A DNA stretch of 64,000 bases. Origin: Bacteroidota bacterium. GTDB lineage: Bacteria; Bacteroidota; Bacteroidia; 2-12-FULL-35-15. Shown here piece after piece: positions 14,683-29,265 of this stretch. The notes beneath the pieces were generated by a model. The model was given only the letters and a program-made list of their open reading frames with translations, was not told the origin of the DNA and did not search any database. A program made the translations under genes and the position numbers. Every line of letters starts with the position of its first letter. The stretch's first letter is position 1. The stretch covers positions 558,001 to 622,000 of the forward strand of contig JAQZBR010000004.1 in assembly GCA_029237775.1 (NCBI GenBank), given 5' to 3'.

Positions 14683-15609
14683 TTATTTTTGAATAGTTAT
14701 GGGAATCGTCTTGGAACGCAGGTTCGTTTTTATCTTCAGATAATAGATACCGTCAGGATACTTGCTTGTTTCTATCCAGTATTTTGTCGGCACATTCTTC
14801 CATTGGCCTACGATTCGCCCCTGTGTATTCACAAGCTCCATGTGCTCAATGATATGAAATTCATCCACCGCCTTCAACTGTATATTGATAATGTTTTTTG
14901 CCGGATTTGGATACACATTAAAGTAATCTGTTGTAGTGACCTCCTTTATGGGATGCGCCATGGTAACATGCGTGTTCATGTTATCTATCATCCATCCATC
15001 TTTACCTGTAGCAATCGAGTCTGATTTAAATGTATATCTAACCTTAACGCTGTCTACCGTGCCGGAAAGCCATGACATATTATAACATAGCCAAATGTCT
15101 TTCCAGGTGGAGTCGGTTCCGCTGAATGCGTACTCACCCGTTGACAATGTATCAACATTCGCTTCGTCATACCCGAAAAAATTATAGACATAAGGATTAT
15201 TAAATACGTTCTGCCATGTGGCGCCATAGTCAATTGAAAACTCAACAATACCACCTGAATGATGCTTTTCCATATCCAGCTTCTGCATCCATTGAACTGC
15301 CATAACACCATAATATTGATATGGAGCCATGTTAAAATAGAAACTTGAAGTGTTAGATGCAGGGTAATTACTCGTAGTATCTGTAACTATTGCATTAGGA
15401 CGTGTTGCCGCACTATCAAAAATATTTTTATCGGGCGAACCAATCTGCCATATATTGTTGGCAGTTGTATCTTTGAATATAAATATCGAATTATAATAGG
15501 TGGTATCTGCACCGTCAAAATATTGTGAATTGTTCCACTGTGAATAAAGTGATGTAGACACAACAAGCATTACCATAAAAAGCGAAATTTTTTGTAGCTG
15601 TTTTTTCAT
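14683..15609 (-). CDS. T9SS type A exported protein
   Basis: The 308-residue product starts with a signal peptide ending near SLYSQ. The middle has a jelly-roll-like segment (GGIVEFSIDYGATW) followed by VDSVKVRYTFKSD and KDGWMIDNMN, similar to surface domains that bind carbohydrate or protein. The C-terminus is a T9SS type A signal: YFNVYPNPAKNIINIQL, MELVNTQGRIV, YPDGIYYLKI. It lies 49 nt after the preceding paralogous gene and 2 nt before the peroxidase gene. The specific function is not recognised. Confidence 0.82.
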   Translation of the reverse strand: MKKQLQKISLFMVMLVVSTSLYSQWNNSQYFDGADTTYYNSIFIFKDTTANNIWQIGSPDKNIFDSAATRPNAIVTDTTSNYPASNTSSFYFNMAPYQYYGVMAVQWMQKLDMEKHHSGGIVEFSIDYGATWQNVFNNPYVYNFFGYDEANVDTLSTGEYAFSGTDSTWKDIWLCYNMSWLSGTVDSVKVRYTFKSDSIATGKDGWMIDNMNTHVTMAHPIKEVTTTDYFNVYPNPAKNIINIQLKAVDEFHIIEHMELVNTQGRIVGQWKNVPTKYWIETSKYPDGIYYLKIKTNLRSKTIPITIQK

Positions 15610-15658
15610 AGGCAGTAGTTTAGTTGATTTTTATGACAAGCGGGAGAATGAAAGACTT

Positions 15659-16579
15659 TTATTGTTTCACTATTTTTTTAGTTACGCTATTACCCTTTTC
15701 ATCACTAAGACGAATCAAATAATTTCCATTTGAAAATTCATTCAAATCAATAGACGCAGGCTTTGTTTCCTTTAAAATAATTTCTCCATTGGAATTCAGG
15801 ACTTCAATAAAATAGGATCCTGTACACGACAGAGAAAGTGTTACAGTTCCTGAAGTCGGATTTGGAAGCACACCAAAGCTGATGCTATTGTTTTCCAATT
15901 CTCCGATACCAACTGAAATACGACACTCCGGTGCCGGTGGCCATACAAAATAACTATACATATTGATCTCATTTACGCCAAAGCAAGCTAAAGTGTTCGA
16001 AGCCGCGCCTTCGGAAAAAAAGTAATTCAGAGGGCCGGCTTCTGACCCAATTCCCTCAATCCAGGGAGCCGAATCGAATCCACCTGTCAACGGTTCTATA
16101 ATTAGACGCTTGTGATAAACCGTGTTAACAAGAATCGAATCAATACCGGCCACAGTATATATTACTGTATCTCCCCATGGATAATCAACAAAAGCCGTAT
16201 CACCAATCATTAAGCTGAAATCATACATAAGTCTTTCCACCCCAAAAAATGCATCATAGTAATACACACGTTTCACAGCTATATCTTCACGTAAAGCACC
16301 GATAAAACTGTTATCATTTTTAAACGAAGGTGGAGTCGGTGGCGGGTAAACCATCGCGTTAACACTCGTTCTATAAAGTTTCTTGTATGGATATGAACCA
16401 AGTACGGTATCTCCGTAAAGATAAGTGCGCAGAAAATGCGTGCTCCCCTGCGAATCGAAGTCTTCCTGCACCCAGAGAGCGCTATCGTTACCCGCTGGAA
16501 ATGGATGGTACACTGCTGATTGAGCGTTCGATTTATTAATGAAGGCTAGTAGCAAGAGAGAGAGTAAAAGTTTTTTCAT
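15659..16579 (-). CDS. T9SS type A exported protein, paralogue of the next upstream gene
   Basis: This 306-residue secreted protein has a signal peptide and a T9SS tail with FGVLPNPTSGTVTLSL and FSNGNYLIRL. It shares segments such as REDIAVKRVYYYD, YDFSLMIGDT and EGIGSEAGPLN with the adjacent upstream gene (RE-DLAQKKVFIVD, YDFTLEAGDT, EGIGSSRGMLN). They are therefore tandem duplicates that have diverged widely. The ATG overlaps the upstream TGA by 4 nt (ATGA), so translation is coupled. The core domain is common in T9SS cargo but its role is unknown to me. Confidence 0.82.
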   Translation of the reverse strand: MKKLLLSLLLLAFINKSNAQSAVYHPFPAGNDSALWVQEDFDSQGSTHFLRTYLYGDTVLGSYPYKKLYRTSVNAMVYPPPTPPSFKNDNSFIGALREDIAVKRVYYYDAFFGVERLMYDFSLMIGDTAFVDYPWGDTVIYTVAGIDSILVNTVYHKRLIIEPLTGGFDSAPWIEGIGSEAGPLNYFFSEGAASNTLACFGVNEINMYSYFVWPPAPECRISVGIGELENNSISFGVLPNPTSGTVTLSLSCTGSYFIEVLNSNGEIILKETKPASIDLNEFSNGNYLIRLSDEKGNSVTKKIVKQ

Positions 16580-17493
16580 AGCTGATTGTTTGTTTTAATA
16601 ATTTTTTGAGTTGCACTGGTTTTATTCTGAAGTGTTATGAAATAAACTCCATCAGGATACCCGGAAAGGTCTATGAGTGCCGGATCGGAGATTAACTTTA
16701 CATTCAAGATCTCTTCACCAAGAATGTTGCAGACTTTTATTGACGCATTCAATTCCGCTTTGATCTTAAATATCCCGGAAGAAGGGTTGGGGAAAACCTG
16801 AAATATTTCAGAAGGACTTGTGATTTGATCTATAGAGGTCAGCAAACCACAACTACCCGTGTTTGATGGATATAATGAGGAGCCATTTTCAGAGAAGCAA
16901 TCGAGATTAGAATAATATTCAAAGTCATTATACGCATTCAACATTCCCCGTGAGCTCCCTATACCTTCAATGATCTCGTATGCATTTGGAATAGCAGCAT
17001 TAATATGCCAGCGCTTTCTATATGTGGTATTGATCATCACGGAATCAACCAACCCGACAGTCATAGGTCCATAACTCAAATAACCTTTGATAGTATCGCC
17101 AGCTTCTAAAGTAAAATCATATAGTAAGCTTTCCTGAGATTCATATTTATCAACGATGAACACTTTCTTCTGTGCAAGATCCTCACGGATCCCTGCCCTG
17201 TAATCAGAGTAGTTTGAATACATGATGGAATGATCACATTCCCAGTGAGGACTCCAGTCATTGACAAAGGTCATACTGAAATCGTGTCCTGTTTGTATTA
17301 CTTTAGAATAAACCAGCCCGTTTATCAGAGTGTCCTCCCCTATCGTATAACTGTATTCCCCGCATGAACCCATGCCCCATTCCTGATATGAGACATTCCA
17401 CACTGCTTGTGAATCGGGGAACTCATGATAACTGTTAGTCTGAGCAAAAACCGACATATTCAGAAGCATAATAAAGAGCAGTATCTTTTTCAT
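16576..17493 (-). CDS. T9SS type A exported protein, first gene of a four-gene operon
   Basis: The 305-residue product carries a signal peptide (cleavage after VFAQ) and a T9SS tail with FQVFPNPSSGIFKIK and YPDGVYFITLQ. It is paralogous to the downstream gene, with YDFTLEAGDT and EGIGSSRG as shared landmarks. It has several Cys residues (for example in GSCGEYSY and DCFSENG) that could form disulfides. It heads the operon running down to the peroxidase at 13607. The 296-nt region upstream should hold the promoter. Confidence 0.82.
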   Translation of the reverse strand: MKKILLFIMLLNMSVFAQTNSYHEFPDSQAVWNVSYQEWGMGSCGEYSYTIGEDTLINGLVYSKVIQTGHDFSMTFVNDWSPHWECDHSIMYSNYSDYRAGIREDLAQKKVFIVDKYESQESLLYDFTLEAGDTIKGYLSYGPMTVGLVDSVMINTTYRKRWHINAAIPNAYEIIEGIGSSRGMLNAYNDFEYYSNLDCFSENGSSLYPSNTGSCGLLTSIDQITSPSEIFQVFPNPSSGIFKIKAELNASIKVCNILGEEILNVKLISDPALIDLSGYPDGVYFITLQNKTSATQKIIKTNNQL

Positions 17494-17789
17494 TTCTGAT
17501 AATTATTTAGTGAATAGCAATTTAATCCCGCTTCAAAGCAGAGAATAGACTGACGCGGCTGAAAATCCAGCCGTCCGGATCAAACAAGAAAGAAAATGGT
17601 TTAGTAAGTTTTTATCATTCAGTTTATATTGGTTTATATAAACATACAACTTTCATTCACAAAATCAAATAATTATGCGATTAAATGAATCGGCAGCTTT
17701 AATCCTCTATTTTAAAAAAATAAAAAATTCCCTGTAACTTTACCGTTATTGGATCGTCTTAAACCCAAAAACGCACAAAAAACGCTACT
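17494..17789. other. Divergent intergenic region before the sigma factor
   Basis: This region contains a stable hairpin CGGCTG...CAGCCG (17556-17561 and 17568-17573) inside the leader of the T9SS operon. An AT-rich stretch holds repeated TTTATAT words near 17630. TAACTTTA lies at about 17736, a one-mismatch -7 element about 50 nt before the sigma factor ATG. No gene is visible. Confidence 0.45.
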
Positions 17790-18275
17790 ATGACCGCTGA
17801 GGAATTCAACAATTGTGTTGACCTGTATGCAGATAATCTTTACCGCTTTATCCTTAAAAATATTAAGGACGAAGAAAAAGCACGTGACGTGGTTCAGGAC
17901 ACTTATGAGAAGCTGTGGCTGAAAGTTTCGGAAGTTGAAAGCACCAATGCGAAGTCGTATATGTTCACCACTGCCTATCGGACAATGATCGACCGCATCA
18001 GAAGGGACAAAAAGCAGGGTGAGATGACAGAGGCAAATTTGTATAGCCTCAGTTCAAACAGACAATACAGCGACTTGAAAGAGATTTTGAACGAAGCCTT
18101 GAATAAGTTACCGGAGATTCAACGGTCGGTAATTCTTTTGCGGGATTATGAAGGGTATAATTATGCTGAGATAGGGGAAATAACAGGGTTGAATGAGTCA
18201 CAGGTGAAAGTGTATATTTTCAGAGCAAGAGGATTCCTGAAAAATTATATCGGAGCGATGGAAAATGTGATCTAA
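17790..18275 (+). CDS. ECF-type RNA polymerase sigma factor
   Basis: This 161-residue protein has a sigma-70 region 2 at residues 10-75 (DLYADNLYRFI, VVQDTYEKLWLK, AYRTMIDRIRRDKK). Region 4 lies at residues 105-155 (LPEIQRSVILLRDYEGYNYAEI, then LNESQVKVYIFRARGFLK). It directs core polymerase to an alternative promoter class. The next gene, 35 nt downstream, encodes a membrane protein with anti-sigma-like domains, which is the usual pairing for ECF factors. Its regulon cannot be inferred from the window. Confidence 0.93.
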   Translation: MTAEEFNNCVDLYADNLYRFILKNIKDEEKARDVVQDTYEKLWLKVSEVESTNAKSYMFTTAYRTMIDRIRRDKKQGEMTEANLYSLSSNRQYSDLKEILNEALNKLPEIQRSVILLRDYEGYNYAEIGEITGLNESQVKVYIFRARGFLKNYIGAMENVI

Positions 18276-18310
18276 ATGCAAAGAGTTAAAGAGTAATAAG
18301 TTAAACAAGA
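18276..18310. repeat. Short 7-nt-phased GTTAAA repeat between sigma and anti-sigma genes
   Basis: The 35-nt gap reads GAGTTAAAGAGTAATAAGTT..., with GTTAAAG, AGTAATA and AGTTAAA in 7-nt phase. It resembles the heptamers at 1996-2023. Confidence 0.4.
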
Positions 18311-19618
18311 ATGACAATCAACAAACATAATTACGAAGCATTTTTCCTTGATTATCATGAAGGAAATCTTTCACCTCAACAGGTGGCAGATCTGCTTTTG
18401 TTCGTTGAGCAGCACCCTGAGCTAAAAGCGGAATTCGAAAGCTTTGAAAACTTTCATCTGGAAGATTACAGCTCTTACACTTTCGAAAACAAAGACAGTC
18501 TGAAAAAAGAAATAACATTACAGAACTATGAAGAATATTTCATTCGTTCGGTAGAAGGCAGCTTGAATCCCGCGGAAATTAATTTATTTGAGTCATTCTT
18601 AAATCAACATCCCCAATATTTATCTGAATTAAATCTTTATCAAAAAACTAAATTATCTCCGGAAGAAAATATTTTCTTTGAAAATAAGCAAGCTTTAAAA
18701 CGCAGCGCGCCTGCAGTTCTACACCAAGAGACGGCCGGTACAGATCACTTACTTATCTCTGCTGTTGAAGGACTTTTATCAACCGGAGAAAATGAATTAT
18801 TACATCAGCAGCTAAAAGCGGACAGCTCTCTTCAAACTGAGTTCGAGCTTTTTAAAAAGACAAGAGTGAAGGCAGATCCTGCTATTGTATTTGAGAACAA
18901 AAATGAGCTCAAAAGAAAGAACAAAAAGGTTGTGCCCTTATTTTATTATTGGTCGGCTGCTGCAGCAGTACTTTTATTATTCGGATTGTATTTTACTTTC
19001 AATAATGGTAAAACAGAAAAACAAGATATTGCTAAAAACAACATCCTAGTTCCTAAAGAAAAAGTCTCTGGTGAGCCTGCACCTTTTGTTGTTCAAAACG
19101 AAAAAGATAATAGCTCTCTTGCATCTGCTATTCAGACACCTAACAGTCGTATAATTCAAAAGACACAGAAAGATGTTTCAGTCGATACTCTGAATATTAA
19201 TAAGGTTGAAAATACTACTCCTGAAATAAATATTGCTTTAAACTCTGAGGAGAAAGAAGTGATACGGGAAGATGCCGCTCCGATTGAAAAAGACGCGGTT
19301 GCTTCGTTAAACAACAATGTTAAAGAAGTTGAAAAATCAAAAGCTGTTTCCAAAGAATTTTTATCGCTTAGAGAAATCGCTGCTGCGAAAATCAAGGAAA
19401 AAACATTAGACGCTGAAGTGCTTGCAATGGAGAAAAAAACAGGACGTGAAAAAAAATTCAGCGGCTGGGATGTGCTGCAGGTTGTCGCAAAAGGTGTAAG
19501 TAAGATCACAGGTAAAAAAGTTGAAGCAAAGCCAACTTACAATGATCAGGGTGAAGTTACCGCGTATGCTTTAGGAGCAGGAAGCTTTCAGTTTTCGAGA
19601 GGGAAACGATCTAATTAA
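18311..19618 (+). CDS. Putative anti-sigma protein with triplicated N-terminal domain
   Basis: The 435-residue product has three related segments of about 60 residues (7-66, 72-131, 145-202). Each runs from a motif like NYE-(A/E)(F/Y)F--(Y/V)-EG-L through an acidic helix to FENK--LK(K/R). A single membrane helix follows (about 209-229), and then a long low-complexity, lysine/glutamate-rich exported region ending with GAGSFQFSRGKR. Position and topology fit an anti-sigma factor that holds the upstream sigma at the membrane. The segments have no Cys, so they are not zinc-binding. The function is inferred from context. Confidence 0.72.
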   Translation: MTINKHNYEAFFLDYHEGNLSPQQVADLLLFVEQHPELKAEFESFENFHLEDYSSYTFENKDSLKKEITLQNYEEYFIRSVEGSLNPAEINLFESFLNQHPQYLSELNLYQKTKLSPEENIFFENKQALKRSAPAVLHQETAGTDHLLISAVEGLLSTGENELLHQQLKADSSLQTEFELFKKTRVKADPAIVFENKNELKRKNKKVVPLFYYWSAAAAVLLLFGLYFTFNNGKTEKQDIAKNNILVPKEKVSGEPAPFVVQNEKDNSSLASAIQTPNSRIIQKTQKDVSVDTLNINKVENTTPEINIALNSEEKEVIREDAAPIEKDAVASLNNNVKEVEKSKAVSKEFLSLREIAAAKIKEKTLDAEVLAMEKKTGREKKFSGWDVLQVVAKGVSKITGKKVEAKPTYNDQGEVTAYALGAGSFQFSRGKRSN

Positions 19619-22359: not shown

Positions 22360-25300
22360 ATGAAACTACTCTACTTCAGGATACTTGTATTTATTTCGGT
22401 ATTGATATGTCAACAGAACAATGCATTCGGCCAGTTTTTTTGTGACACGAATGTGCCTGTATTTCCAATTAATTTTACCGGTTCCCCTTCCACTACCTAT
22501 ACTATCTCAAACGTAACAAGGGACGGGTTATGCTGTACACATACAAATCCGAACAGATGTATTGAGTTCGTGATAACCATGGATGCTAACCAACAGGGTA
22601 TCTCCCTAAATTCAAGCGGTGGGCCTGCATTAGGTGCTGGCGGTATTCAGCTGGAATGTGACACTACCACTTATAGTTTCCTTGATACAATTTGCCTGTC
22701 CGGTGTTGGTCCGCATCATGTTACTCTATGTAAGCCGGGCGGAAACGCATATGATTATTACATTACGGGTATACCTAAGCCAAGTGCCGGTCCCCCGATC
22801 GCGGTAAGTGACGGCTGTACAGGTTTTGTTTACGCACAGGATTATATTGAATCAACACTCAGCTGGACTTCCATATCACCGGGAGCAGTTGGAGCATACA
22901 ACCTATACCTTAGCTGTACGAGTGGTTGCGACACAACGGTTGTTACCTCTCAGCCCGGCTACCCCGATTCGGTGCTTTATCAGGTGACAGGAACTCCACG
23001 CGGTGGCTGCAGTAATTTATCTGTTTCAAATTCAGTGTGGGTATATTTCGTAAATGATAAAGTCGCGACCATAACACCTAACAACCCCGTGGTCTGCGCT
23101 GGTGCGACAAGTGCGGTGCTAACTGCGAATGGTACCGGAGGACGACAACCTTATAATTATCTCTGGAGCACTGGAGCCACAACACAAAGTATTTCCGTTG
23201 GTGTTGGAACCTATTGGGTCAGGATCGGAGATGTCACCACATGTCCTCCCGTCTACGACACGGTCATAGTCAACTCGAGCCCCAACCCGGTAGCAAATTT
23301 TACATCTTCCAACGCCTGTGCGAATTCAGGAATGATCTTTACTGATGCCAGCACAATCAGTGCAGGAAGTATAACTGCCTGGAGCTGGAATTTCGGAGAT
23401 GCAACTACAAGTACATTGCAAAACCCCGTGCATACGTATGCAGCAGCAGGAACATATACGGTAACTTATACTGCAATTTCTGCTGCAGGCTGTTCAAATA
23501 CAATAACAAGAACTGTAACTGTGAGTCCTACTCCGGTAGCCTCTTTTACAGCTAACAACATGTGTTATATAGGTTCTGTAACATTCAACAACACAAGCAC
23601 GATCAGCAGCGGATCGATTACCAGCTGGAACTGGAATTTCGGAGATGCGACATCAAGCACACTGCAAAATCCAACACATGTATACGCTGCTGCCGGTATA
23701 TACAACGTAGTGCTTACCTCAACTTCCGCGCTTGGATGTTCGGGGACAACAACGGTTCCTATGAACATGCAGCCTGCACCTTCCGCTAATTTCACATTCG
23801 GCTCGGCCTGCGCACAATCTGCACTCACTTTCACGAATACATCAACGGTTGTAGCTAACAGCTCTCCGACATACAACTGGAATTTCGGAGATGCTACATC
23901 AAGCACCCTTCAGGATCCTTCACACGTATATGCAACGGGAGGAACATATAATGTGACCCTAACCGTTACTACTGCAGCGGGCTGTTCCAGCGGGATTATA
24001 AAAACAGTCACTGTGAATCCAAAACCGGTAGCTTCTTTTACCGTTAACAACATGTGTTATTCAGGTTCTGCAACCTTTACCAATACGAGTACCATCACCT
24101 CAGGAACAATAAGCAGTTATAGCTGGGATTTCGGAGATGCCACTACAAGCACCCTTACAAACCCTACGCACGCTTACGCAACAGCCGGAACTTATAACGT
24201 GACCTTAACAGCAACTTCTGCACTTGGCTGCTCCACTACAACAACGGTTGCAGTTAACATGCAGCCAGCTCCCATAGCTGACTTCACTGCGACTACCGCT
24301 TGCGCAACAGCTCCAATTACTTTCACCAACAATTCAACGGTTGTCAGCGGAAGTACACCATCCTGGAGTTGGAATTTTGGTGATGCAACTAGCAGCACCT
24401 TACAAAACCCTTCACATACATACGCAACGGGAGGAACATATAATGTTACCCTAACTGTAACCACTGCAGCAGGATGTACCAACAGCATAACCAAAACTGT
24501 TACAGTCAATCCGAAACCGGTTGCTTCTTTTACTGTTAATAACATGTGTTACTCAGGTTCGGCAGCCTTCACCAATACAAGTACCATTGCCTCAGGAACG
24601 ATAAGCAGTTACAGCTGGGATTTCGGAGATGCTACTACAAGCACTCTTCAGAATCCGACACACACATTTGCAACTGCGGGAACCTATAATGTAACTCTTA
24701 CGGTAACTTCTGCATTAGGCTGTTCAACAACTACGATTGTCCCGGTAAATATGCAACCTGCACCTGTTGCTGATTTTACATTCACACCGGCATGCTCCGG
24801 CACACCAATAACATTTACAAATACATCTTCCGTTGTTAACGGAAGCACTCCATCCTGGAGCTGGGATTTTGGTGACGCAACAAGCAGCACCACGCAGAAT
24901 CCTTCTCATTCATATGCTGCCGGAGGAACCTATAATGTTACACTGACCGTGACTACTGCGGCAGGATGTACCAACAGCATTATTAAATCTCTTACGATCA
25001 ATCCAAGTCCCGTGGCTGCGTTCACGGCCAATTCAATGTGCTATGTGGATTCTGTGACTTTCAGCAATACAAGTTCAGTCAGCACCGGAACAATTACAAG
25101 CTACACATGGGATTTCGGTGATGCAACAACGAGTACCTTACAAAACCCAGATCATTATTATTCAACTGCAGGAACTTATAACGTTACTTTAATTGCGACT
25201 TCTAATTTCGGGTGTAAAGACACAACAGTTGTAACGATGAATATGCAGCCTGCTCCGCTTGCTGATTTTACATTTACTTCAGCTTGCGCGAATGTTTCCA

Positions 25301-28300
25301 TTGGCTTTAATAATACTTCAACCGTAGTCGCGGGAAGCAGTCCTTCATGGAGTTGGAATTTTGGAGATGCAACAAGCAGCACTGCACAAAGCCCTTCTCA
25401 TTCCTACTCAACAGACGGAACTTACAATATTACCTTAACTGTTACCACTGCCGCAGGCTGTTCAAATACAACAACACAACCATTAACGATCAATCAAACT
25501 CCAATAGCAGCCTTTACAGCAAACGCATTGTGTTACGTTGATTCAGTTACATTTACAAATACAAGTTCTATTAGTGCAGGATCAATTACAGGTTACTCCT
25601 GGAATTTCGGAGATGCAACAACAAGTGCACTAACGAGTCCGAATCATTATTATGCTACCGCAGGAACTTACAACGTTACATTAATTGCAACATCCAGCTT
25701 CGGGTGTAAAGACACAACAGTTGTTACATTCGACATGCAGCCATCACCTGTTGCCGAGTTCAATACTACTACTGTCTGTGCGAACGCTGTTGCAACCTTC
25801 ACTAACACTTCAACTGTGGTTGCGGGATCTTCGCCTTCGTGGAACTGGGATTTCGGTGACAGTAACACCAGCGCATTGCAAAATCCGTCCAACGTATATG
25901 CGATCGGAAACACATACAATGTAAACCTTACGGTAACGACTGCCGCAGGCTGTACAAGCACAATCACAAAACCTGTCACTATAGATCCTACTCCGGTGGC
26001 AGCGTTCTCTGCTAACTCGATGTGTTATGCGGATTCGGTTACATTCACTAATTCAAGCAGTATAAACTCGGGTACAATTTCAGGATATGCATGGAATTTC
26101 GGTGATGCGACAACAAGCACGCTTCAAAGCCCTGATCATTATTATGCGTCTGCAGGCGTTTATACGATCACTTTAATAGCAAGCACTTCCCTTGGTTGCA
26201 GTGATACTATCACAAGTTCTATTGATATGCAGCCAAAACCGAATGCTGATTTTACTTCAACCGGAAATTGCGCAAATTCTACAATTGTATTCACCAACAC
26301 TACAGTCGCGGTAAGCGGAACAAATCCATCATGGAACTGGAACTTTGGCGACAGCAATACAAGCACACAGCAAAACCCTGTTAATACCTACAGCGCTGGC
26401 GGCACATATAATGTAACGATGGTAGCAACTTCACTGGCAGGTTGTAATGATACAATCACAAAAGTGCTAACCCTTGATCCGACTCCTGTAGCGAGCTTCA
26501 CAGCTAATTCAATGTGTTATGTTGATTCTGTAAGATTTACCAATACAAGCTCTATCAGTTCAGGAACAATCACTTCTTCCTCCTGGAATTTCGGTGATGG
26601 AAACTCAAGTACATTAACAAACCCGGCTCATTTTTATGCTACGTCAGGAATTTTTAATGTCACGCTCATCGTTAGCTCATCAACGGGATGTAGTGATACG
26701 ATTATTACTGCAGTGAATGTTCAGCTGGCACCTGTTGTAGATTTTACTTTCCCTGCAGCTTGTGAAAACCTTTCATTCAGCTTTACTAACACATCAACAC
26801 TGAGCTCGGGGACATTCACCTCCTGGAACTGGGATTTCGGTGATGGTAACTCAAGCACAGTTCAAAATCCAAGCTACACATATACTACACCGGGAACATT
26901 TAATGTTACACTTATCGGGACTGCAGCTTCCGGTTGTGCTGATACGATCGTAAAAATGATCATTGTAAATCCAGGGCCTGTTGCTTCGTTCACTTCAACC
27001 AATCCTTGTTCGATCGATTCTATTCAATTCACAAATACGAGCACTATAGGGATTGGAAGCATCACATCACAAAACTGGGCTTTCGGTGATGGGAACACGT
27101 CCACAATTTCTAGTCCAAGTCATCTTTACGGTTCTGTTGGATCTTACACTGTAACACTTGTTGTAACTTCGGACCTTGGTTGTGCAGATACAAGCTCTGC
27201 AAATATCAACGCGTCTTTATTAAGTCCCGGCTTTACGGATAACGGACCTGCTTGTCAGGGTGTAGGCATCAACTTTAATGATACCTCAATGATCGATGTG
27301 AACACTACAATTACCGGCTGGAACTGGAGCTTTGGTGACGGAACTTTCTCAACTGTTCAAAACCCTACACATCCTTACAACGCTGGTGGTTCATATACTG
27401 TTCAGTTAATTGTTACGACCGCATCAGGTTGTCTCGACAGCGCAACTCACATCGTAAACATTCAGGGATTCCCTTCTGCTGATGCAGGAAATGATACCAG
27501 CAAGTGTGCAAACAATCCTTCTATCGGAATTGGCGGAGTTGTTTTAAATGCCGGTGGCGGACAGTGGTTCGGTAACGGCTCATTCAATCCGAATCCATTT
27601 GTGTTAAATCCTATTTACACACCCAGTGCGGCAGCAATTGCAAACGGTTTTGATACTTTATTACTTGTAACTACCAGCAATGCACTTTGTCCGGCAGATA
27701 CTGATCAGGTGATCATTAACTTCTACCCTGGCCCGACAGTAAATGCAGGCAGCGATCTGACAGTTTGTAAGGATACCGTAAATGTGCCTGTTTGTGCAAA
27801 TATTACGATGGCGACAGGCGGAATGTGGCAGACGATGGGATCAGGTACTTTTGTTGATGATTCGGCAGCATGTACTCAGTATATTCCCAGCACAGCAGAC
27901 ACAGCAGCAGGTTCAGTAGTTTTAGTGGTGACATCAACAGGCAACATGGATTGTTTCGCAATAAGCGATACTGTCACCATTTTCTTTACACCAACGCCTG
28001 TGGTAATGATTACGTCAAACGACAGCACATGTGCCGGCAATCCATATTTCCTCGGAGTGATCACAACAACCGGATCCGGATATTGGGCAACAAGCGGAAG
28101 TGGTTCATTCACGCCAAATGATACAACACTTAATGGAATATATTATCCGAGCGCAGCAGATGATGCAGCAGGAAATGTGATCATATATTTCAATTCTGCA
28201 AACAATGGCGGATGCCGCGTTCAAAGTGACACGCTTGATCTTACACTTATTCCTTCGCCAATAAATGCATTCACAAGCGTTGTTGCTTGTCCTACTTTAC

Positions 28301-29265
28301 CAACAGTATTTACAGATGCTTCCACATCAACGGTTGCGATAAATAACTGGAGCTGGACATTTGGTGACGGAGGAACAAGCAGCTCACAAAACCCTTCCCA
28401 CGTTTATGGTGCAGGCGGAGCATACAATGTTTCGTTGATCACCACTTCGGTGAATGGTTGCGTTGACACACTTACGCAGCTTGTAAATATTTACTACAAG
28501 CCAAATGCAGGCTTTGACGCAAATGGAATTTGTCTGAATGATGGAACTCAGTTCACAGACACTTCAAGTGTGACAAACTCAACTATCACAAACTGGGCAT
28601 GGAACTTTGGTGATGGAATGACATCAGCCGTGCAAAACCCTTTACATGTATATCCTTCGGGAAACACTTACAATTCTGTATTGATCGTTCAGTCCGGTGA
28701 CGGTTGCCGCGATACAGTGATGCAAACAATCGGAGTATTGCCTAATCCAACCGCAAATTTCACTGCGGATGATTTCTCTGTGGATGTTGATCAGACAGCT
28801 CAGTTCCATGATCAGTCGAGCAGCCTCGTAACTCAATGGCTGTGGGATTTCGGAGATTCACAAGCTGATTCAACATCTACTTCACAGAACCCAAGCCATG
28901 TATATCACACAGGAGGTTTCTATGATGTTTGTTTATACGTTACTGATGTGAACGGGTGTACGGATACCATCTGCAAACCTATCGTAGTATCCTTACCACC
29001 GGTTGTTCCTTCAGGATTCAGTCCTAACGGTGACGGAGAGAATGACATCTTCAGTGTGTATGGTGGCCCTTTCAAAGAGCTTGAATTCAGGATCTATAAT
29101 AACTGGGGTGAGCTGATCTTTACATCGAACAAACAGGAAGATGGTTGGGATGGCCGCAGAAAAGGCGTTGACCAACCGATCGGTGTGTATGTCTATATCA
29201 TTTACGCGGTCACTGAAAATGATGAAGAATACCGGTTATCAGGAGATGTGACATTATTACGATAA
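22360..29265 (+). CDS. Giant PKD-repeat adhesin with T9SS type B signal
   Basis: This 2301-residue secreted protein starts with a signal peptide (cleavage near AFGQ). After a 300-residue N-terminal region it contains about 20 PKD-type domains, each with a W-W/N-FGD core such as SWNWNFGDATSS and TAGTYNVTL. A non-PKD block of three Ig-like segments interrupts the array at roughly residues 1715-1965. The C-terminus is a gliding-motility (type B) signal: PSGFSPNGDGENDIF, LEFRIYNNWGELIF, GVYVYIIYAV. The gene precedes porP/sprF and an OmpA-TPR gene, the usual partners of type B cargo. It is likely a surface-exposed adhesive or gliding filament protein. Confidence 0.92.
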   Translation: MKLLYFRILVFISVLICQQNNAFGQFFCDTNVPVFPINFTGSPSTTYTISNVTRDGLCCTHTNPNRCIEFVITMDANQQGISLNSSGGPALGAGGIQLECDTTTYSFLDTICLSGVGPHHVTLCKPGGNAYDYYITGIPKPSAGPPIAVSDGCTGFVYAQDYIESTLSWTSISPGAVGAYNLYLSCTSGCDTTVVTSQPGYPDSVLYQVTGTPRGGCSNLSVSNSVWVYFVNDKVATITPNNPVVCAGATSAVLTANGTGGRQPYNYLWSTGATTQSISVGVGTYWVRIGDVTTCPPVYDTVIVNSSPNPVANFTSSNACANSGMIFTDASTISAGSITAWSWNFGDATTSTLQNPVHTYAAAGTYTVTYTAISAAGCSNTITRTVTVSPTPVASFTANNMCYIGSVTFNNTSTISSGSITSWNWNFGDATSSTLQNPTHVYAAAGIYNVVLTSTSALGCSGTTTVPMNMQPAPSANFTFGSACAQSALTFTNTSTVVANSSPTYNWNFGDATSSTLQDPSHVYATGGTYNVTLTVTTAAGCSSGIIKTVTVNPKPVASFTVNNMCYSGSATFTNTSTITSGTISSYSWDFGDATTSTLTNPTHAYATAGTYNVTLTATSALGCSTTTTVAVNMQPAPIADFTATTACATAPITFTNNSTVVSGSTPSWSWNFGDATSSTLQNPSHTYATGGTYNVTLTVTTAAGCTNSITKTVTVNPKPVASFTVNNMCYSGSAAFTNTSTIASGTISSYSWDFGDATTSTLQNPTHTFATAGTYNVTLTVTSALGCSTTTIVPVNMQPAPVADFTFTPACSGTPITFTNTSSVVNGSTPSWSWDFGDATSSTTQNPSHSYAAGGTYNVTLTVTTAAGCTNSIIKSLTINPSPVAAFTANSMCYVDSVTFSNTSSVSTGTITSYTWDFGDATTSTLQNPDHYYSTAGTYNVTLIATSNFGCKDTTVVTMNMQPAPLADFTFTSACANVSIGFNNTSTVVAGSSPSWSWNFGDATSSTAQSPSHSYSTDGTYNITLTVTTAAGCSNTTTQPLTINQTPIAAFTANALCYVDSVTFTNTSSISAGSITGYSWNFGDATTSALTSPNHYYATAGTYNVTLIATSSFGCKDTTVVTFDMQPSPVAEFNTTTVCANAVATFTNTSTVVAGSSPSWNWDFGDSNTSALQNPSNVYAIGNTYNVNLTVTTAAGCTSTITKPVTIDPTPVAAFSANSMCYADSVTFTNSSSINSGTISGYAWNFGDATTSTLQSPDHYYASAGVYTITLIASTSLGCSDTITSSIDMQPKPNADFTSTGNCANSTIVFTNTTVAVSGTNPSWNWNFGDSNTSTQQNPVNTYSAGGTYNVTMVATSLAGCNDTITKVLTLDPTPVASFTANSMCYVDSVRFTNTSSISSGTITSSSWNFGDGNSSTLTNPAHFYATSGIFNVTLIVSSSTGCSDTIITAVNVQLAPVVDFTFPAACENLSFSFTNTSTLSSGTFTSWNWDFGDGNSSTVQNPSYTYTTPGTFNVTLIGTAASGCADTIVKMIIVNPGPVASFTSTNPCSIDSIQFTNTSTIGIGSITSQNWAFGDGNTSTISSPSHLYGSVGSYTVTLVVTSDLGCADTSSANINASLLSPGFTDNGPACQGVGINFNDTSMIDVNTTITGWNWSFGDGTFSTVQNPTHPYNAGGSYTVQLIVTTASGCLDSATHIVNIQGFPSADAGNDTSKCANNPSIGIGGVVLNAGGGQWFGNGSFNPNPFVLNPIYTPSAAAIANGFDTLLLVTTSNALCPADTDQVIINFYPGPTVNAGSDLTVCKDTVNVPVCANITMATGGMWQTMGSGTFVDDSAACTQYIPSTADTAAGSVVLVVTSTGNMDCFAISDTVTIFFTPTPVVMITSNDSTCAGNPYFLGVITTTGSGYWATSGSGSFTPNDTTLNGIYYPSAADDAAGNVIIYFNSANNGGCRVQSDTLDLTLIPSPINAFTSVVACPTLPTVFTDASTSTVAINNWSWTFGDGGTSSSQNPSHVYGAGGAYNVSLITTSVNGCVDTLTQLVNIYYKPNAGFDANGICLNDGTQFTDTSSVTNSTITNWAWNFGDGMTSAVQNPLHVYPSGNTYNSVLIVQSGDGCRDTVMQTIGVLPNPTANFTADDFSVDVDQTAQFHDQSSSLVTQWLWDFGDSQADSTSTSQNPSHVYHTGGFYDVCLYVTDVNGCTDTICKPIVVSLPPVVPSGFSPNGDGENDIFSVYGGPFKELEFRIYNNWGELIFTSNKQEDGWDGRRKGVDQPIGVYVYIIYAVTENDEEYRLSGDVTLLR
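23290..27480 (+). repeat. Coding tandem repeat of PKD units with a two-unit higher order
   Basis: PKD units of about 82 residues alternate between two types. One has a CY...DSVTFTNTS start and an MQPAP linker, the other an ACA...TFTNTSTVV start and an NPxPVAAF linker. The repeat period is therefore about 164 residues. Between the copies starting near 24010 and 24502 the spacing is exactly 492 nt, and the protein identity there is very high. Confidence 0.8.

Follow-up and report, generated by a model that had tools for sequence, protein, structure and literature searches.

Tandem anti-sigma-like modules of two types in membrane proteins encoded beside ECF sigma factors in Bacteroidota

A 64,000-nucleotide stretch of a Bacteroidota genome (referred to here as the window) encodes an ECF sigma factor followed by a 435-amino-acid membrane protein with three tandem modules. 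This protein belongs to a genuine variant of the class I anti-sigma factor that is widespread in Bacteroidota, differs in module number among relatives, and is predicted to bind sigma. The comparison of relatives gives good evidence for two specialized module types, a first type and a later type, and for a regulon. With a probability of roughly 0.5, the pair forms a transmembrane sigma/anti-sigma switch in which a two-site clamp holds one sigma and which controls outer-membrane genes.

Results and discussion

Locus and tandem repeats

Both open reading frames (ORFs) were confirmed at the coordinates in Table 1, in agreement with an earlier interpretation made from the DNA letters (the sequence-only reading), and are separated by 35 bases between the sigma stop codon and the second gene. 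The proposed pairing of an ECF sigma factor with a tandem-repeat anti-sigma-like protein was supported. The 435-amino-acid protein is present as a single copy in its host genome (4.08 Mb, 12 contigs).

Table 1. Features of the sigma/anti-sigma-like locus (positions in the window)
Feature	Position	Strand	Basis
ECF-type promoter TGTAACTTT-N13-CGTC, predicted autoregulatory	17733..17758	+	Motif search, conservation upstream of sigma
ECF sigma factor, 161 aa	17790..18275	+	Pfam Sigma70_r2 and r4_2
Membrane anti-sigma-like protein, 435 aa	18311..19618	+	ORF, repeats, predicted fold, anti-sigma fold matches
R1, residues 7-66, first-type module, Asp14 in helix 1	18329..18508	+	Repeat profile, repeat tree, residue columns
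R2, residues 72-131, later-type module, KTKL and FENKxxLK, RsiW-like fold match	18524..18703	+	Repeat profile, fold alignment
R3, residues 144-202, later-type module, RslA-like fold match	18740..18916	+	Repeat profile, fold alignment
Predicted transmembrane helix, residues 211-231	18941..19003	+	Hydrophobicity, structure model
Variable low-complexity linker, residues 232-341	19004..19333	+	Genus alignment, dN/dS
Conserved C-terminal exported domain, residues 342-432	19334..19606	+	Genus alignment, dN/dS

Repeats R1, R2, and R3 all lie N-terminal to the single hydrophobic helix. Their local BLOSUM62 scores (R1-R2, 103; R1-R3, 57; R2-R3, 86) were not reached in any of 5,000 shuffles for each pair, which bears out the earlier description of three related segments, each some 60 residues long, on the cytoplasmic side. 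The exported tail had been described as long and of low complexity; this holds for the linker (mean identity within the genus, 0.198) but not for the conserved 91-residue domain that follows it (0.560). The three repeats of the window protein contain no Cys, and the Hx3Cx2C zinc motif is therefore absent from them.

Copy number in the family

A profile built from R1 to R3 detected the same repeat one to six times in sigma-adjacent ORFs of other genomes, and its iteration on the ORFs of the fetched loci produced 127 repeat-bearing ORFs. In 122 of these, the gene immediately upstream, in the same orientation, encoded a sigma, and the remaining five were at contig ends or had over-called starts. 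After eight duplicates were dropped, 119 distinct proteins were retained, a set chosen by likeness to the window protein; three segments were found in 58, two in 55, five in 3, six in 1, and one in 2. Matches to the family occurred in 186 genomes of a 395-genome sample of the class. Relatives in named records were nearly all metagenome-assembled Bacteroidota, with Maribellus maritimus (L170) as the sole cultured species and one record labeled Chlorobiota (L174).

When only first repeats were used for the profile, 88 of 149 class genomes matched, and 20 of the weak or short matches were fetched as extra regions. Eleven of these contained a one-repeat protein directly after a related sigma (sigma score, >120 bits), and the other nine contained a three-repeat protein (L254), no such sigma, or a distant sigma only. 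Single-repeat proteins thus do exist among outlying relatives, and the family as a rule has two or three repeats. The sequence-only reading, which had set three segments against a typical one, was half right in calling the number unusual: the three segments are real, but 117 of the 119 relatives carry more than one. It had also named one-segment homologues as evidence that would count against it, and the 11 further proteins beside related sigmas give that objection partial force.

Mapping copy number onto a tree of 117 sigmas required at least 14 changes, compared with a mean of 43 and a minimum of 34 for shuffled labels; copy number therefore follows descent but is labile. Downstream of the genes for the five- and six-copy proteins (L089, L090, L091, and L094) lies a small gene whose lipoprotein-like product has 169 to 187 amino acids. 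In L089, this product is a methionine sulfoxide reductase (SelR), a hint of an oxidative branch.

Two module types and the proposed clamp

First and later repeats are homologous (hhalign, E = 1.6e-21), and the repeat tree, from which some partial repeats (<45 aligned residues) were excluded, contained one clade made up exclusively of 111 first repeats (support, 0.91). An acid at column 8, in helix 1, was present in 110 of 113 first repeats (as Asp), 12 of 184 later repeats, and 9 of 13 single repeats. Thr or Ser at column 42, before the FxNKxxLK segment, was present in 3 of 108 first, 161 of 184 later, and 11 of 13 single repeats. These columns were picked after the contrast had been seen, and 11 of the 13 one-repeat proteins were fetched afterwards. 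Proteins L084 to L087, which break the first/later rule, were omitted from the first and later counts, and L055 and L069 were counted as singles. Both signatures occurred together in 8 of the 13 one-repeat relatives, which come from few families and so do not represent eight independent events; the other five lacked one signature. Information content followed the same division, with 2.81 bits per column in helix 1 of first repeats versus 1.93 in later repeats and, across the linker and motif, 1.47 bits in first repeats versus 1.90 in later ones.

In the accessible portion of a survey of class I anti-sigma factors, solved complexes are described in which helices 1 to 3 contact sigma4, with helix 1 as the coevolving contact, and helix 4 contacts sigma2 (PMC7406223). 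The column-8 acid would correspond to the sigma4 contact, and the FxNKxxLK segment would correspond to the sigma2 contact. We infer, as the simplest reading, that the two halves of the grip settled in different modules after duplication, that the tandem modules share the work of one ancestral domain, and that one sigma is probably gripped at two sites.

Under the proposed mechanism, the inhibitor would hold the sigma by a string of zinc-less, class I-like anti-sigma modules, with a module of the first kind in first place and one to five of the second kind behind it. The first module, which keeps the helix-1 acid (Asp14), would grip sigma region 4, and a later module, which keeps the T-x-L linker and FxNKxxLK, would grip region 2, producing a two-site clamp to which additional later modules may contribute avidity or reserve sites. 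The sigma would then be released by a signal acting at the conserved exported tail and, once free, would transcribe its own operon and DUF2807/outer-membrane barrel genes. The fuller form of this proposal, a split anti-sigma factor in which the ancestral domain was divided among module types, the first module and a later one together clamp one sigma, and lineages tune the switch by carrying from one to five later modules, is plausible but tentative. If the modules do share the work, the family would offer a natural switch with its strength set by domain number, together with a predicted promoter and predicted target genes.

A different reading gives sigma binding to the first module alone and makes the later modules spacers or binders of something else near the membrane. 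R1 is indeed the most conserved repeat (mean identity in 24 genus members, 0.763, versus 0.562 for R2 and 0.520 for R3) and has the lowest dN/dS of the three, and covariation between sigma and repeats leaned slightly toward the first repeat, in a set of 111 pairs that holds too few sequences for this analysis. Against this, the conserved linker and motif of the later modules are stronger than those of the first, and several one-module relatives (L245, L247, L249, and L256) carry a later-type domain by score. We regard binding by the first module alone as doubtful. A single-chain AlphaFold2 model of sigma plus R1 to R3 from relative L007, where the two genes lie in a common frame, showed no docking (pTM, 0.26; alignments whose repeat-only rows aligned to sigma were left out) and so says nothing on which module binds.

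It is possible, although not favored and in our judgment unlikely, that every module is an anti-sigma domain complete in itself and that up to three sigmas are held as a large reserve with graded release. The helix-1 acid so common in first modules has been lost from the later ones, and one operon encodes sigma and inhibitor one to one; both facts weigh against a multiple-sigma arrangement, even though the three-helix pattern and the FxNKxxLK segment are kept in all three modules and copy number is as labile as a dosage trait might be. The partition of residues appears to fit a shared grip on one sigma better than binding of several sigmas or a graded response.

Anti-sigma likeness and retention of the repeats

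The AlphaFold2 model of residues 1 to 235 (103 rows; mean pLDDT, 88.4; pTM, 0.43) predicted that each repeat consists of three helices, with a further short helix at FENKxxLK, so that the repeats are modeled as firm beads, loosely strung. Among the top-ranked Foldseek chains, the best aligned was RslA, on R3 (Z = 4.9), and the second was RsiW, on R2 (Z = 4.6; rmsd, 1.9 over 46 residues), both low on the scale of the tool; ChrR, on R3 (Z = 2.7), ranked after one unrelated row. Foldseek E values for these chains were >1, all aligner Z scores were below 5, and R1 was covered by no fold match among the aligned chains. The point of this model-based search is that anti-sigma factors head the list, despite low scores.

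The Pfam family matched by most members was zf-HC2, which we take to be the zinc-type anti-sigma domain (18 of 103 at E values up to 1; best, 1.1e-6). When repeats were searched separately, zf-HC2 matched 3 of 61 later repeats, and neither it nor another anti-sigma family matched any of 57 R1 repeats. A PDB sequence search with the whole 435-amino-acid protein returned no match, and the PDB matches of both repeat profiles (troponin C, phosphoribosyltransferase, and similar) were rejected as chance rows.

The 435-amino-acid protein has no Pfam domain above the cutoff and its anti-sigma role is predicted, so it could be some other membrane partner of the sigma operon. We consider this very improbable in view of the sigma adjacency, the anti-sigma fold matches, the zf-HC2 traces, and a protein of similar layout in Porphyromonas gingivalis, likened by layout only, that is annotated as a putative anti-sigma factor in the available part of the source (PMC10101095).

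Pooled dN/dS values from 12 close pairs in the genus were 0.070 for R1, 0.164 for R2, 0.129 for R3, 0.050 for the membrane helix, 0.358 for the linker, and 0.096 for the C-terminal domain. All three copies are under purifying selection and are kept. The suggestion of partly decayed copies is contradicted by these values, and although R2 and R3 are less conserved than R1 and one genus member (L028) has two copies with R3 cleanly absent, the low ratios relative to the linker and the presence of three repeats in open frames in the 24 full-length genus members with three copies make decay of R2 and R3 extremely improbable.

Class I anti-sigma domains (ASDIs, such as those of RsiW, RslA, and ChrR) are the best, though low-scoring, structural neighbors of the window protein and have in common with it a three-helix module with a short later helix (predicted here), an adjacent ECF sigma gene, and a transmembrane anchor. 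The differences are that most relatives of the window protein carry two to six tandem modules, that the window protein lacks Hx3Cx2C, and that first and later modules divide the conserved residues. The zinc motif is optional in ASDIs and is missing from about 44% of them, according to the accessible part of PMC7406223. Members of the Dma family, as the available parts of PMC13088901 and PMC13114119 describe them, also occur in Bacteroidota with an ECF partner and combine an N-terminal anti-sigma domain, one membrane helix, and a long disordered tether. Their end is an outer-membrane beta-barrel, whereas the window protein ends in the conserved 91-residue domain and no barrel family was found in it with Pfam. 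By eye, four one-module anti-sigma proteins of 555 to 570 amino acids (L055, L241, L242, and L243) have long tethers and barrel-like ends and look nearer to Dma than the window protein does. The PG_0214/PG_0215 pair of P. gingivalis has the same order, sigma and then putative anti-sigma, in the source as available; the family of PG_0214, NF058625, is the top NCBIfam match of the window sigma, at 120.1 bits and thus under the curated cutoff of 130.

No papers on tandem or multiple anti-sigma domains were found in one search of an open-license library, which is not proof of absence. The accessible part of the survey cited above reports that only 6% of ECF sigmas in Bacteroidetes have a class I anti-sigma domain encoded next to them, and it suggests broken synteny or other inhibitor classes (PMC7406223). 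A divergent multi-module family of the breadth found here may fill part of this gap.

Promoter motif and candidate target genes

A TGTAAC-N16-CGTC site ends 31 bases before the sigma start and has no second match in the window, where 0.04 matches are expected on average by chance. Of 123 loci, duplicates included, 106 carried this motif or a close variant upstream of the sigma gene, compared with a shuffle mean of 1.46, and its placement suggests autoregulation. The exact motif occurred at four sites in the host genome and at one in the reversed control; one of the four is at the sigma operon, and another is 30 bases before a DUF2807 and outer-membrane barrel gene. An alternative promoter pattern was dropped (two sites in the host genome versus six in the reversed control).

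Across 36 genus genomes, 91 exact sites were found. Eighteen of 39 DUF2807 genes were preceded on the same strand by an exact site no more than 300 bases away (expected, ~0.0001 per gene). A looser form of the motif was present at 22 of 29 loci of DUF2807 genes (expected, 0.18); the misses include two unresolved loci and three whose strand was probably misassigned. The same motif could be read by other ECF sigmas. Beyond the genus, the gene directly after the anti-sigma gene was scanned in other families, and the nine proteins comprised four with DUF2807, of which three also have a barrel domain, another three with only a barrel domain, one SelR protein, and one with no match. In L215, L217, L221, and L224, the promoter motif occurs twice in tandem before the DUF2807 genes, with a spacing of about 65 bases.

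In two genus members, L029 and L030, the sigma is truncated or missing and the partner is reduced to its C-terminal part, without repeats, flanked by conserved neighbors that are presumably lepA-like and nadB-like; these loci appear to show the switch caught in decay. One of these genomes (G025, L029 or L030) keeps the site before its DUF2807 gene, and loss of the sigma and loss of the sites are therefore not strictly coupled.

The CGTC box of the window promoter recalls the CGT-box class of ECF promoters reported in Flavobacterium psychrophilum with type IX secretion system genes and one sigma/anti-sigma pair, in the part of that study available (PMC9723704). Elsewhere in the window, three adjacent exported proteins are encoded on the minus strand at 14683 to 17493, and the one at 16576 to 17493 resembles, by eye, a gene upstream of sigma in relative L026. 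The tails of these three proteins look, we assume, like type IX sorting domains. Positions 22360 to 29265 encode an exported protein of 2,301 amino acids that contains many PKD-like repeats and whose C-terminal domain we take to be like that of type IX secretion cargo.
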